Assembly: GCA_008375315.1 (NCBI GenBank) | Contig: CP032507.1 | Span: 744,001-808,000, forward strand | Direction: 5' to 3' | DNA: 64,000 nucleotides | From: Ectothiorhodospiraceae bacterium BW-2 | GTDB lineage: Bacteria; Pseudomonadota; Gammaproteobacteria; Thiohalomonadales; Thiohalomonadaceae | Shown: positions 33,460-37,906 of the stretch, one piece after another | How positions within the stretch are numbered: position 1 is the stretch's first letter | Layout of the letters: every line of letters starts with the position of its first letter | Notes under the pieces: generated by a model | Database searches by the model: none | The model's input: only the letters and a program-made list of their open reading frames with translations | Told to the model about the DNA's origin: nothing | Program-made: the position numbers and the translations under genes

Positions 33460-34662
33460 TTAATCGTGGTCAAGGTCGGGCAGCTTCAGCGTCAATAGCC
33501 AGGTGAACAGCAGAAACAGCGTTGAGCCGACTAAGCAGCCGACTAGCCCGACCATCTGATAGAGCAGCCCTGAGAGCACAGTGCCGGCTAAGCGACCGCC
33601 GGCATTGGCCATATAGTAAAAACCGACGCTCATTGCCACCTTATCGTGATCGGAGTAGGCCAAAATGAGATAGGAGTGGAGCGCGGAGTTAATCGCAAAC
33701 AGAATGCCAAACAGTACCAGACCGATCACTAACACCCCATCCGCAGCCCACCCCTGCGCCATCGCCCAACCGATCCCTGCCGGTGAGAGCGCTAATAGCA
33801 GCACCCAAAAGCGGGCGGTGGCCCCCCCTGGGGGGCGGCTCTCTTTTCGAGAGTGGAGCAGTTTGGGCGCTAGAGCCTGCACAAACCCATACCCTATCAC
33901 CCACAGCGCTAAAAAGGTGCCCACTTCGGTAAATGACCACCCCAACCCCTCGTAGAGAAAGACCGGCAGGCCGACCACAAACCAGATATCACGCGATCCA
34001 AATAGAAAAAAACGGGCCGCCGAGAGCCAATTAATGGCGCTAATGTTGGAAAAGACTTGCGTAAATGTCGGCTTACTCTTCATCTTACCCACCCCAGAGG
34101 GGAGCAGCAGCAGGGTGATGAGCAGTATCAGCAGCAGCCCGCCGGCCAAAAGCGCCAGCGCCATCCTAAAGCCGACCCACTCTAGCAGTAGCGCACCGAC
34201 AAAGAAGCCGACCCCTTTGAGGGCATTTTTGGAGCCGGTGAGCAGGGCGACCCACTTAAACAGCTTCGACTCCTCGCCGCCACTCACTATCGCCTTGACC
34301 GATGCTTTAGCCGACATTTTATTCAAATCTTTAGCGATCCCCGACAGCGCCTGCGCCGCCATCACATAACCGACCGAGAGCCAGCTATCGGGTACCGTCA
34401 ACATGAGCAGCGCCACCACCTGGAGCGCCATGCCGATATGCATGGTCAAATTCAGGCCGATACGCGCCCCGAGCCAGCCACCGACTAGGTTGGTAACGAT
34501 GCCGAAAAACTCATAGAAGAGGAACAGCATCGCCACCTCAAACGGCGAGTAGCCGAGCAGATGGAAGTAGAGTACCACCAACATCCGAATCGCCCCATCG
34601 GTGAGGGTAAAGCCCCAATAGCCACCGGTGACAATAAGATAGTTACGGACTCCTCGCTCCAT
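33460..34662 (-). CDS. arsJ: Organoarsenical efflux MFS transporter ArsJ
   Basis: 400 residues with about 12 hydrophobic helices. It opens MERGVRNYLIVTGGYWGFTL, then TDGAIRMLVVLYFHLLGYSP and FLFYEFFGIVTNLVGGWLGA, stretches I recognise from ArsJ. ArsJ exports 1-arseno-3-phosphoglycerate from the cytoplasm, and its partner GAPDH makes that compound from arsenate. The GAPDH gene lies one base upstream on the same strand, the standard pairing, so arsenate resistance is the likely job. No ArsR repressor gene is visible in the window. The 3' end is 11 bases from the decarboxylase remnant on the other strand. Confidence 0.9.
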   Translation of the reverse strand: MERGVRNYLIVTGGYWGFTLTDGAIRMLVVLYFHLLGYSPFEVAMLFLFYEFFGIVTNLVGGWLGARIGLNLTMHIGMALQVVALLMLTVPDSWLSVGYVMAAQALSGIAKDLNKMSAKASVKAIVSGGEESKLFKWVALLTGSKNALKGVGFFVGALLLEWVGFRMALALLAGGLLLILLITLLLLPSGVGKMKSKPTFTQVFSNISAINWLSAARFFLFGSRDIWFVVGLPVFLYEGLGWSFTEVGTFLALWVIGYGFVQALAPKLLHSRKESRPPGGATARFWVLLLALSPAGIGWAMAQGWAADGVLVIGLVLFGILFAINSALHSYLILAYSDHDKVAMSVGFYYMANAGGRLAGTVLSGLLYQMVGLVGCLVGSTLFLLFTWLLTLKLPDLDHD

Positions 34663-34663
34663 G

Positions 34664-35671
34664 TTACAGACTCCGAGCGACCTTAGCGGTCAGCTCCATC
34701 ATGCGATTAACATAGCCCCACTCATTGTCGTACCAAGCGTAGAGCTTCACCTGAGTGCCATCGATCACCATCGTTGAGAGGGCGTCAATAATCGACGAAC
34801 GGGGATCGTTAACATAGTCCACCGAGACCAGTGGCCGCTCCTCGTAGCCCAAAATCCCGCGTAACTCCCCCTCTGCGGCCATTTTAAAGTAGCCATTTAT
34901 CTCCTCCACCGTCACCGGACGGGCCGCCTCAAAGACAAAATCGGTCAGCGAGGCGTTAAGCAGCGGCACTCTGACCGCATGGCCGTTGAGTTTTCCCTCT
35001 AATTCAGGAAAGATTTTGGTAATCGCTTTAGCCGAACCGGTAGTGGTCGGAATTAACGACTCGCCACAGGCGCGGGCGCGACGCAGGTCTTTATGGCCTC
35101 TATCGACGATAGTTTGGGTATTGGTAATATCGTGAATCGTGGTCATGCTGCCGTGAACGATACCGATCTGCTCATGCATCACCTTAACGACGGGGGCTAA
35201 ACAGTTAGTCGTACAGCTCGCTGCGGTTAATAGATGGTGCTCATCGGGACGATAGAGGTGATCATTAATGCCATAGACGACATTGAGCGCCCCCTCGGTC
35301 GGTGCCGCCACAATCACCTTTTTGACCCCCTGCTCAAAGTAGTTTTGCAATAGCTGCGGCTTTTTATGGTGTTTGCCGGTCGCCTCAATCACGATATCGC
35401 AGCCTGACCAGTCGGTCTGCTCAATCGCTGCGTGACGGCTATAGACGAGCTCCCGCCCCTCAACCACCATGCGGTTAGGATCACCACTAGCCCCACTCTC
35501 CCGTGACCAGCGTCCATGGACGGAATCAAATTTTAAGAGGTGCGCCGAGCCTGCCGCATCGGTTGCTATCTCATTGATCTGCACCAGCTCAAACTCATCT
35601 CGCTCCCAGCCGACCCGAAATCCGAGCCGTCCCATGCGCCCAAAGCCGTTAATACCTACTTGAATGGCCAT
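34664..35671 (-). CDS. gap: Glyceraldehyde-3-phosphate dehydrogenase, arsJ-associated
   Basis: 335 residues from the ATG at 35671, which has an AGGAGG site about 10 bases upstream. The frame extends to 35716, but that part is not GAPDH-like. [18 protein letters not shown] is the NAD-binding start, and the catalytic Cys153 lies in [13 protein letters not shown] with the following His region conserved. In arsJ operons this enzyme uses arsenate in place of phosphate to form 1-arseno-3-phosphoglycerate, the ArsJ substrate. It is adjacent to arsJ (one base). The sequence alone cannot exclude a normal glycolytic role. The context points to arsenate. Confidence 0.92.
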
Positions 35672-35696
35672 CTGTTCATTACCTCCTAGTGAGTTG

Positions 35697-35804
35697 GTTA
35701 GTGTGTAACCGTTCACTCTCCCCGCTAAATTTTACCCCTCACCCCAACCCTCTCCCGCCGGGAGAGGGAGATTAAGGAGGGAGAGTGAACGGTTACGTTA
35801 GTGT
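35697..35804. mobile_element. 92-bp MITE with 18-bp terminal inverted repeats and 8-bp target duplication (IS66-like ends)
   Basis: Perfect 18-bp inverted repeats, gtaaccgttcactctccc at 35705-35722 and its complement at 35779-35796, bound a 92-bp element. It is flanked by the 8-bp direct repeat GTTAGTGT (35697-35704 and 35797-35804). Inside is a second palindrome, CCCTCTCCC-GCC-GGGAGAGGG at 35748-35768. It follows CCCTCACCCCAAC, a hairpin motif common between genes in many proteobacteria. Ends beginning GTAA and an 8-bp duplication are hallmarks of the IS66 family, so I infer a non-autonomous IS66 relative. It sits between the MBL gene stop and the gap ribosome site. Confidence 0.88.
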
Positions 35805-36781
35805 TACTGCGCAGCCTCAAGCTGCATAAAAGTTTGATGGATATTGCGCCGATGCCAGCTATCAAAATATTGCAGATGGGCAAATTCGGGCGCTTCAGCC
35901 AGAGAGTCGATAGTCTCACTCATCTCCCGCCACTCCTCCAGCGCTAGAGTGACACCGTCAATTAACCAGTTAAGATAGTTACCGCTATCACGCCGCGCTT
36001 TGGCCAGATCGCCAGGGGCACCGTGGCCGGGGACAATCCTCTCTGGCTGCAACTGCTCTATCATCTGCCACGATCGCTGCCAGTTGACCACTTTTGAGCT
36101 CGGCCAGATCCCCAACATACGGTCATGAAAGAGATAGTCACCACTAAAGAGAGTTTTATGCTCTGGCAACCACAGCAGCGCATCCCCATGAAAGTGGCCA
36201 CCACCGGGCCAGATCAGCTCAAACGCCACCCCACCAATCTCAAATGACGCTCGCTCTTTAGCGATGAGCTCGCTCGCATGGCGCGGGGTAATCGTCTTAG
36301 CCTCAGCACCGATCTCCCGCTCTAAGCGCCCTAGCTGGCTATCCTGCTGTCGTCGCTGATCGGTAGCGGTGATCTGTAGCGCCTGTACTGGAATCTGCCG
36401 CTCCAGAAAGTAGCTATTCCCCATCCAGTGGTGATCCTGCACGCCGATATTAATGACTCGAATAATCGGCCTATCGCTCACTTCAGCGATCTTCTGCTCA
36501 ATGAGCGCTGCCGCTGTCGCTGTTGTGCCGCTGCCGATAAGAACCACTCCCTCAGCGGTCACCACAAAGCCCAAGGTGTTATTTAAGCCGTGGTTAGCGG
36601 CGTTACGAGGCCCCACCTCCCCCAATAGAGCATAGATAGTAGCCCCCAGCGGCTCAACCTTCAGCGTAAAGGCCGAGACGGCCATCGCCGAGCAGAGCAG
36701 TAACACTAGTCCCCCCCCCTGTCGGCAGAGAGTATGCCACCTAAGGGGGGCGCTTCGTTTCAATAGTAACCACAACAGCAT
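35804..36781 (-). CDS. Exported metallo-beta-lactamase-fold hydrolase with altered zinc motif
   Basis: 325 residues from the ATG at 36781, which has AGGAG 8-12 bases upstream. A longer frame to 36844 lacks such a site. A signal peptide or anchor ends near SAMAVSA. The MBL fold is shown by VLIGSGTT, WPGGGHFHGDALLWLPEHKT, LFSGDYLFHD and IVPGHGAPGD. The usual HxHxDH zinc motif is replaced by NIGVQDHHWMGN, keeping the DH and lacking the first two His. This is probably a subfamily trait. Substrate unknown. It lies upstream of gap-arsJ on the same strand, separated by the MITE, and diverges from the permease gene. Confidence 0.82.
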   Translation of the reverse strand: MLLWLLLKRSAPLRWHTLCRQGGGLVLLLCSAMAVSAFTLKVEPLGATIYALLGEVGPRNAANHGLNNTLGFVVTAEGVVLIGSGTTATAAALIEQKIAEVSDRPIIRVINIGVQDHHWMGNSYFLERQIPVQALQITATDQRRQQDSQLGRLEREIGAEAKTITPRHASELIAKERASFEIGGVAFELIWPGGGHFHGDALLWLPEHKTLFSGDYLFHDRMLGIWPSSKVVNWQRSWQMIEQLQPERIVPGHGAPGDLAKARRDSGNYLNWLIDGVTLALEEWREMSETIDSLAEAPEFAHLQYFDSWHRRNIHQTFMQLEAAQ

Positions 36782-36833
36782 AAAAAATCTCCTAAACTTA
36801 AAGTCGTACGCAGGGAGGACGAACCACCACAGC

Positions 36834-36888
36834 AAAAGATGCACCCTTGGGGCTATTTTTTACCGCTAACAGATTAGCTGCATCTTTT
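36834..36888. promoter_or_regulatory. 10-bp inverted repeat in divergent promoter region
   Basis: AAAAGATGCA (36834-36843) and TGCATCTTTT (36879-36888) are perfect complements 35 bases apart, midway between the divergent MBL and permease genes. They could be an operator for a dimeric regulator or a long-loop stem. No regulator gene is adjacent to choose between these. Confidence 0.4.
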
Positions 36889-36946
36889 CGGGGCACTGTT
36901 CGTCTTCTTGGGAAACCCTTATCCCTACCGTTGGAGTGATCCCTAA

Positions 36947-37906
36947 ATGTTCGATGCCCTTGCCGACCTACTGGTATTTCAAGTGCTTGGCTTAAATCCT
37001 GCCAGCCATGCAGGTGCTGCGCTGCACTTTTTTGTGATGGATACGGTCAAAATCTTTGTCATGCTGCTGCTGATCATCTATAGCATGGGGCTGTTACGAG
37101 CGATGCTTTCACCGGAACGGGTACGCGACTATGTGCGCGGCAAACCGGTGTGGATGGCACGCACTACCGCCATCGGGCTAGGGGCTGTCACCCCATTTTG
37201 CTCCTGCTCATCAGTCCCACTCTTTATCGGTTTTGTCGAGGCGGGGATTCCGTTAGGGGTCACCTTCTCTTTTTTGATCGCCTCGCCCATGATTAACGAG
37301 GTAGCGGTGGTGATTTTAGCCGGCATTCTCGGCTGGGAGCTGACCTTGATCTATGTGGCAGCAGGATTGAGTGTCGCCTATATTGGCGGCGTGGTCATGG
37401 AGTATTTCAAGCCCGAACGCTGGGTTGAGCCCTATATCTGGAAGATTCAGATGGGGCAGATGCAGCTCCCCCAACCCGACAGATCGTTGCGGGGACGACA
37501 CCGCTACGCCGTAGGCGAAGTCAATACATTGATCGGTCGACTCTGGAAGTGGATTATCGCTGGAATTGCCATCGGGGCACTGTTCCATGGCTATGTCCCC
37601 GAGGAGTGGGTGAGCGAGCATCTAGGCGGTCAAGATAACTGGCTAGCGGTACCGGGGGCAGTCTTGTTGGGGATTCCCCTCTACTCTAACGCCACCGGCG
37701 TGATTCCGGTGGCCGAGGCGATGCTCGGCAAAGGGGTCGCTATCGGCACCACCCTCGCCTTAATGATGAGTATTGCCGCCCTCTCGCTACCGGAGATGAT
37801 TATTCTGCGCAAAGTGATACGCTGGCCAGCGCTCGCCCTCTATGCCACTGTACTGGCGGTCGCCTTTACTCTGGTAGGCTGGGGGTTTAACTGGCTTACC
37901 GCCTAA
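36947..37906 (+). CDS. CSCSS-motif membrane permease (DUF318/ArsP-related)
   Basis: 319 residues with about eight hydrophobic helices. The conserved TPFCSCSSVPLFIGF (Cys85, Cys87) and FLIASPMINEVAVVIL and GIPLYSNATGVIPVAEAML mark the permease family that includes ArsP, an exporter of trivalent organoarsenicals. Many family members pair with a small thioredoxin-like protein, as here. I therefore favour a metalloid or thiol-linked export role without claiming the substrate. It is the first of three plus-strand genes (permease, AhpD-like, thioredoxin-like). A GGAG lies 13 bases before the ATG. Confidence 0.85.
   Translation: MFDALADLLVFQVLGLNPASHAGAALHFFVMDTVKIFVMLLLIIYSMGLLRAMLSPERVRDYVRGKPVWMARTTAIGLGAVTPFCSCSSVPLFIGFVEAGIPLGVTFSFLIASPMINEVAVVILAGILGWELTLIYVAAGLSVAYIGGVVMEYFKPERWVEPYIWKIQMGQMQLPQPDRSLRGRHRYAVGEVNTLIGRLWKWIIAGIAIGALFHGYVPEEWVSEHLGGQDNWLAVPGAVLLGIPLYSNATGVIPVAEAMLGKGVAIGTTLALMMSIAALSLPEMIILRKVIRWPALALYATVLAVAFTLVGWGFNWLTA

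Follow-up and report, generated by a model that had tools for sequence, protein, structure and literature searches.

Gene interruption by bacterial MITEs is already known (PMC3189936, PMC9769881, PMC10969869), and a review of these elements makes no mention of IS66 (PMC10969869). The IS66 family itself is better described with regard to its ends and target sites. ISDge4, a member of the ISBst12 group that contains one open reading frame, has ends that read GTAACTGCTCAGCA and is flanked by an 8-bp repeat, CCTCGATG (PMC12898284), and IS66 members in Paracoccus also generate duplications of 8 bp (PMC3281130). No MITE derived from IS66, and no match by sequence to the MITE described below, was found in the literature searched.

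The element considered here lies between two genes of an arsenic-type locus in the window, the whole stretch of 64,000 nucleotides of the genome of Ectothiorhodospiraceae bacterium BW-2 that was analysed. It is judged, with a probability of about 90%, to be a genuine IS66-type MITE of the single-transposase (ISBst12-like) kind, and hence a non-autonomous element.

The element in the window

The features of the locus, in the order of their coordinates within the window, are as follows.

33460..34662, minus strand: arsJ (NF033734), MFS organoarsenical efflux, downstream of gap
34664..35671, minus strand: ArsJ-associated GAPDH gene, gap (NF033735), taken from the likely ATG after AGGAGG
35697..35704, no strand: target-site duplication GTTAGTGT, 8 bp, left copy
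35705..35796, no strand: MITE of 92 bp with IS66/ISBst12-type ends and no coding capacity, present in about 15 copies in the genome
35705..35722, plus strand: left terminal inverted repeat GTAACCGTTCACTCTCCC, 18 bp
35735..35768, plus strand: internal hairpin module CCCCTCACCCCAACCCTCTCCCGCCGGGAGAGGG (cargo), also seen in many other bacteria, where it lacks these ends
35779..35796, minus strand: right terminal inverted repeat, the perfect complement of the left
35797..35804, no strand: target-site duplication GTTAGTGT, 8 bp, right copy, with its last base in the MBL stop codon
35804..36844, minus strand: MBL-fold hydrolase gene (PF00753), immediately upstream of the insertion

The sequence-only reading of this DNA had described a 92-bp element with perfect 18-bp terminal repeats and GTTAGTGT on either side, which proved exact to the base, and the gap-arsJ setting that it proposed was also borne out, with the MBL, ArsJ-associated GAPDH and ArsJ genes as neighbours, all on the minus strand. 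The terminal inverted repeats begin GTAA; the outer 18 bp form a perfect inversion and the longer arms of 26 nt are 88% complementary. When up to three mismatches are allowed, the terminal 18-mer is expected 0.03 times per window, against the two occurrences found, which are the two ends of the MITE, and the probability of an exact 8-bp match between the flanks by chance is 1.5e-5. The interior contains CCCCTCACCCCAA and then a CCCTCTCCC/GGGAGAGGG palindrome, with a CCCTCTCCCG/CGGGAGAGGG palindrome at 35748-35768 and, at 35735-35756, the only occurrence of CCCCTCACCCCAACCCTCTCCC in the window. The 92 bp hold no gene and hence no transposase.

Copies, duplications and interrupted genes

The BW-2 genome (4.07 Mb, one contig) was searched for further copies of the MITE. 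In the whole genome, near full-length copies number about 15, six of them identical across all 92 bp, and there are several fragments as well. This excludes one of the outcomes that, according to the sequence-only reading, would have refuted it, namely that no second copy exists anywhere. Exact 8-bp duplications are present at 8 of the 13 distinct paired-end copies in this genome, rising to 9 of the 13 if one mismatch is tolerated, and include CTTTGAGT, CTTAAAAC, TGTCGAAG, CAATTTGT, CCCGAGTT, GATACGAT and GGCAGAAA. Copies without a duplication include three in a cluster near 855-858 kb, and older or rearranged ones. The cluster (L065 1700-3740; G000:C1:855.7-857.7 kb) is made up of three full and two partial copies that have repeated flanks and no target duplications, and it probably grew by segment duplication and not by transposition.

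The best single proof of recent movement is an empty paralogous site. The copy at 834514 sits within a 260-bp repeat that belongs to another MITE family, and four unoccupied copies of this repeat (L512, L513, L518, L521) read CTTCCGGTAATCC, the empty site, where the occupied one reads CTTCCGGT-MITE-CTTCCGGA, with the right flank also given as CTTCCGGAAATCC.

Several copies lie inside genes. Where the flanks of a copy were joined and one duplication was taken out, four copies gave open frames, of 679, 572, 372 and 461 codons. From their translations as read, with no family search, the 572-codon frame apparently encodes ureC, the alpha subunit of urease, and the 461-codon frame apparently urtA, the binding protein of a urea-type ABC transporter. 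The two copies L004 and L007 (G000:C1:2647209-2647300 and 2639042-2639133), 8 kb apart, separately break the apparent ureC and urtA. Urea use looks, from the genome sequence, to have been lost through the MITE family of the window. The multiple copies, the 8-bp duplications, the paralogous empty site and the four interrupted open frames uphold the earlier claim that the MITE moved as a unit.

The matching IS66 element and its transposase

The IS66 (PF03050) elements of the BW-2 genome, of which there are several, have ends of four or more kinds, only one of which matches the MITE. A full IS66 element with matching ends had been proposed as something to look for in the genome, and it was found at two places, G000:C1:2240864-2244501 and 672951, both copies now being broken. 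The former has the ends GTAACCGTTCAGTCCCCCCC and GTAACCGTTCAGATACCCCC, an 8-bp duplication, TACGAAAC, and a single transposase gene (PF03050/NF033517) that is interrupted by an IS3-like element; its NF033517 score is below the cut-off because the gene is cut. The copy at 672951 loses its frame after about 393 codons and shows no right end in the stretch examined. A protein of 517 amino acids with no Pfam family (L061 2329-3882) interrupts or abuts this second copy; it has a weak IS481-like match and may be another unclassified transposase.

The first 11 end bases are identical between the MITE, whose ends follow the pattern GTAACCGTTCA-NN-C-rich, and both matching IS66 copies. What the MITE shares with IS66 is these approximately 11 end bases and the C-rich tract, not the interior, which is too little to establish descent by internal deletion. 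Related transposases occur on a Methylotuvimicrobium plasmid, between GTAATCGTTTAGCCCCC ends flanked by an exact 8-bp duplication, and in a Methylumidiphilus genome, with ends GTAACCGTTTACCCCCCC; the Methylumidiphilus genome also has 14 paired-end MITEs, most of them with GTAACCGTTCAGCCCCCC ends. No IS66 transposase was detected in the genomes G004 or G385, which hold 16-18 such MITEs each, although fragmented assemblies lose repeats. The matching ends in this genome, in relatives and in ISDge4, taken with the 8-bp duplications, therefore make the MITE IS66-type and ISBst12-like.

The TnpC of the matching IS66 would have acted in trans, binding to the GTAACCGTTCA-NN-C-rich ends of the MITE and moving it, and the copy in the window would have landed at GTTAGTGT between the MBL gene and gap. 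The CCCTCACCCC hairpin in its interior has a wider distribution of its own and is taken to be a captured stem-loop repeat. As both matching IS66 copies are broken, the MITE family is probably now stranded in this genome and its present mobility is doubtful.

The hairpin as cargo

The sequence-only reading had gone further and taken the element to explain how the widespread CCCTCACCCC motif moves in general, a claim that does not hold. A 21-mer of the hairpin, CCCTCACCCCAACCCTCTCCC, is present on at least 120 IMG/VR stretches, and among the matches listed none of the 115 distinct IMG/VR contexts has IS66-like ends around the hairpin, with only 4 of the same 115 showing any plausible terminal repeat together with a direct repeat. 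Enterobacterial plasmids carry the CCCTCACCCC hairpin bare, just after stop codons, and in relatives of the family it is often bare or within longer elements that have ends like TTAACAGGTTGCTGAAAAA. In G004 and G012, which belong to another genus of the family, the IS66-type MITE that bears this hairpin has 16-20 copies, of about 80% identity. The notion of CCCTCACCCC as a generally IS66-borne repeat is ruled out by the IMG/VR contexts, which corrects an easy over-reading: the hairpin is cargo in this MITE lineage. At three loci of relatives (L132, L134, L154), the CCCTCACCCC hairpin forms a pair with a CCTTCTCCC hairpin inside elements with TTAACAGGYTGYTGAAAAA-like ends, which are possibly a third MITE type carrying the CCCTCACCCC hairpin.

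The wide occurrence of the hairpin outside such ends could also mean that it is itself the mobile unit, moved in the manner of REP/RAYT repeats by a Y1 transposase, with the IS66-like ends incidental. The presence of GGGGTGAG in the hairpin would agree with this, as it fits GGGGWSAS, which is shared by a family of terminal repeats of Y1 transposases (PMC3733652). Against it, the GTAA...TTAC ends, not the hairpin, are what the duplications border in this genome, neither a GTAG nor a CGTC tag stands beside the hairpin, and the hairpin is absent from the 1.5 kb around each of 30 Y1-transposase loci in 20 genomes (the hairpin-rich relative G019 left out). As an explanation for the movement of the 92-bp unit, Y1/RAYT transposition is already refuted, and a mobile hairpin with incidental ends is very improbable.

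Possible exchange of ends and hairpins

For the IS66-type MITE, the terminal 18-mer was searched in GTDB contigs, with follow-up of the matches. Taking this and other genomes together, exact 8-bp duplications flank 47 of 106 paired-end matches, and 65 of 106 with up to one mismatch, compared with 0 of 2096 permuted end pairings that served as a control; the survey began from known ends, such that these counts give no frequency of end-hairpin pairings. Among 369 genomes sampled from the class, paired ends turned up in only one genome besides BW-2. A degenerate-end pattern applied to IMG/VR viral contigs was discarded, as its extra matches were mostly unrelated and lacked duplications, and it served as a negative control.

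The same ends enclose quite different interiors. In Desulfobacterales (Desulfococcaceae) they enclose the hairpin sequences GAGCGGAACGGCTTTCCGCTC with GCGGGACAGCTTCCCGC, and the Desulfobacterales genome concerned shares with Chloroflexi a GTTCCCA...TGGGAAC hairpin within IS66-type ends. A GGGAGCGCGGGCGTCCCGCCCGCC hairpin is housed in such ends in Methylumidiphilus and a CTTTCGCTCCGCGAAAG hairpin on one IMG/VR contig, so that IS66-type ends recur with different hairpins across Desulfobacterota, Chloroflexi, Gammaproteobacteria and IMG/VR contigs. In 47 distinct elements (those whose duplications differ by no more than one mismatch), the interiors proved to fold better than shuffled sequences, with a median z of -3.2 and 36 of them below -2. 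On IMG/VR contigs, two of the other hairpin cargos are present but lack IS66 ends; one 21-mer from another hairpin cargo gave no match on IMG/VR contigs, and the other hairpin cargos gave no match in the plasmid collection.

A hairpin can likewise be found within other ends. A variant of the CCCTCACCCC hairpin in the BW-2 genome, CCCCCACCCCAACCCTCCCCC, with a local alignment score of 44 where the shuffled maximum is 23, sits in a 114-bp MITE that has ends GGCCTTGTTCATCGTTYCG and exact 8-bp duplications. Ends of the GGCCTTGTTCATCGTTYCG type occur more than 90 times in the BW-2 genome, allowing two mismatches, and they also bound an element of 1868 bp (L506 102-1969; G000:C1:172701-174568) with 19-bp ends, GGCCTTGTTCATCGTTTCG, and, at this first copy, the exact 8-bp duplication CAGTTGCG. 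A second copy (L518 385-2252) is 98% identical. The element encodes a protein of 583 amino acids in which DUF6399 is the only clear domain. In Thiodictyon, a DUF6399 gene lies between GGCCTTGATCAT ends with an 8-bp duplication, and the two cyanobacterial DUF6399 genes examined have no such ends. No relative of the protein appeared in a viral-contig scan, a PDB sequence search gave no match, and no mention of DUF6399 was found in the literature searched. The MITEs with the ends of this element are located as follows.

L508 122-235, L509 95-208, L507 118-275, L512 90-349, L513 64-323, L522 67-325: MITEs with DUF6399-element ends, 114-260 bp, with exact 8-bp duplications and several hairpin interiors

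Other MITEs with DUF6399-type ends carry GTAGGGGCGGGTTTCAAACCCGCCCCTAC and GTTGGGC...GCCCAAC hairpins. The DUF6399 protein is probably the transposase of an undescribed IS family, and the domain thereby gains a likely function as a by-product of the analysis. It is a candidate, too, for having mobilised the 92-bp MITE in place of IS66, as another transposase that makes 8-bp duplications and is present in two copies, but its ends (GGCCTTGTTCATCG) are unrelated to GTAACCGTTCA, and GTAA ends with 8 bp fit IS66, one genomic IS66 having exactly these 11 end bases, which leaves the DUF6399 protein an even slimmer prospect than the mobile hairpin.

That one end type pairs with different hairpins, and one hairpin with different ends, is a recurring arrangement and the more novel part of the analysis. 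Such pairings may come about by chance capture, by recombination or through a selected role of the hairpin. A broader proposal can be put forward only tentatively, and the balance lies somewhat against it: MITEs of unrelated transposase families may act as general carriers of stem-loop repeats, IS66/ISBst12-type and DUF6399-type ends repeatedly acquiring different, independently existing hairpins, with end and hairpin exchangeable, the hairpin perhaps selected, and DUF6399 an unrecognised IS transposase. If so, the selected role of the hairpin could be, for example, single-strand folding during transposition, or limiting the damage done by transcription. IS66-type ends around varied hairpins offer one concrete and testable way for 'anonymous' stem-loop repeats to spread.

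Probable consequences for the MBL-gap-arsJ locus

The insertion abuts the MBL gene and leaves its reading frame unchanged, since the right duplication overlaps the MBL stop codon (35804-35806) in one base only, the codon's first on the plus strand and the last of the right GTTAGTGT. The distance from the MBL stop to the gap ATG is 132 nt with the MITE and 32 nt without it, and the gap open reading frame as listed extends to 35716, starting at a GTG inside the MITE. The transcript side of the MITE folds at -58.5 kcal/mol (z -7.6). No intrinsic terminator (a GC hairpin followed by a T tract) is predicted in 35500-37000. The insert most likely lengthens the MBL-gap-arsJ transcript by 100 nt that include a very stable hairpin, and would do so without stopping the transcript, read-through being predicted because there is no U-tract.

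The earlier suggestion that empty sites be sought succeeded in part: paralogous ones exist in the same genome, for the copy at 834514, but none was found at the window locus in relatives. In relatives, the flanks examined around the MBL homologues contain no GAP gene and so offer no orthologous empty site for the locus. In three relatives (L163, L165, L168) the MBL homologues are near an ArsP_1 permease, not next to gap, and these permeases are 77-85% identical to that of the window.

The position of the 92 bp between co-directional genes and its very stable RNA fold might suggest a regulatory or transcription-processing element, conserved at the ars locus, that only resembles a MITE, but as an origin of the 92 bp this is already refuted and has as little in its favour as mobilisation by DUF6399, given that the same 92 bp recur at about 15 unrelated places in the genome, among them the interiors of several genes, with 8-bp duplications and paralogous empty sites, that the MBL homologues of relatives lack a GAP gene in the flanks examined, and that there is no terminator, no U-tract and no Rfam match near the gathering score.

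Comparison with known systems

The IS66-type MITE resembles MITEPsy1 (PMC3189936), MITECca01 (PMC9769881) and Chunjie (reviewed in PMC10969869) in being small and non-coding, with terminal inverted repeats and ends that are shared with an IS. It differs in its partner, as the IS linked to MITEPsy1 is ISPsy2 (listed as IS5?, with a 4-nt duplication) and that linked to MITECca01 is IS982. The interior hairpin is short, GC-rich, palindromic and widely intergenic, as are the REP, REPIN and TIRYT repeats (PMC3733652), and with some TIRYT repeats it has in common the GGGGWSAS motif. Unlike these repeats, it has neither of the two tags and no adjacent Y1 transposase was found; it has instead moved inside IS66-type ends.

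What is documented here is an IS66-group MITE family for which a full element with matching ends, target duplications, broken genes and empty sites are all in evidence. Unlike the elements of the ISBst12 group, the MITE has no gene, and only the terminal bases and the C-rich tract are common to it and the full element. As with ISDge4 and the ISBst12 group of IS66 (PMC12898284), its ends are of the GTAAC type (GTAACTGCTCAGCA in ISDge4 versus GTAACCGTTCA here), its insertion is marked by an 8-bp duplication, and it has a single-ORF relative in the BW-2 genome.
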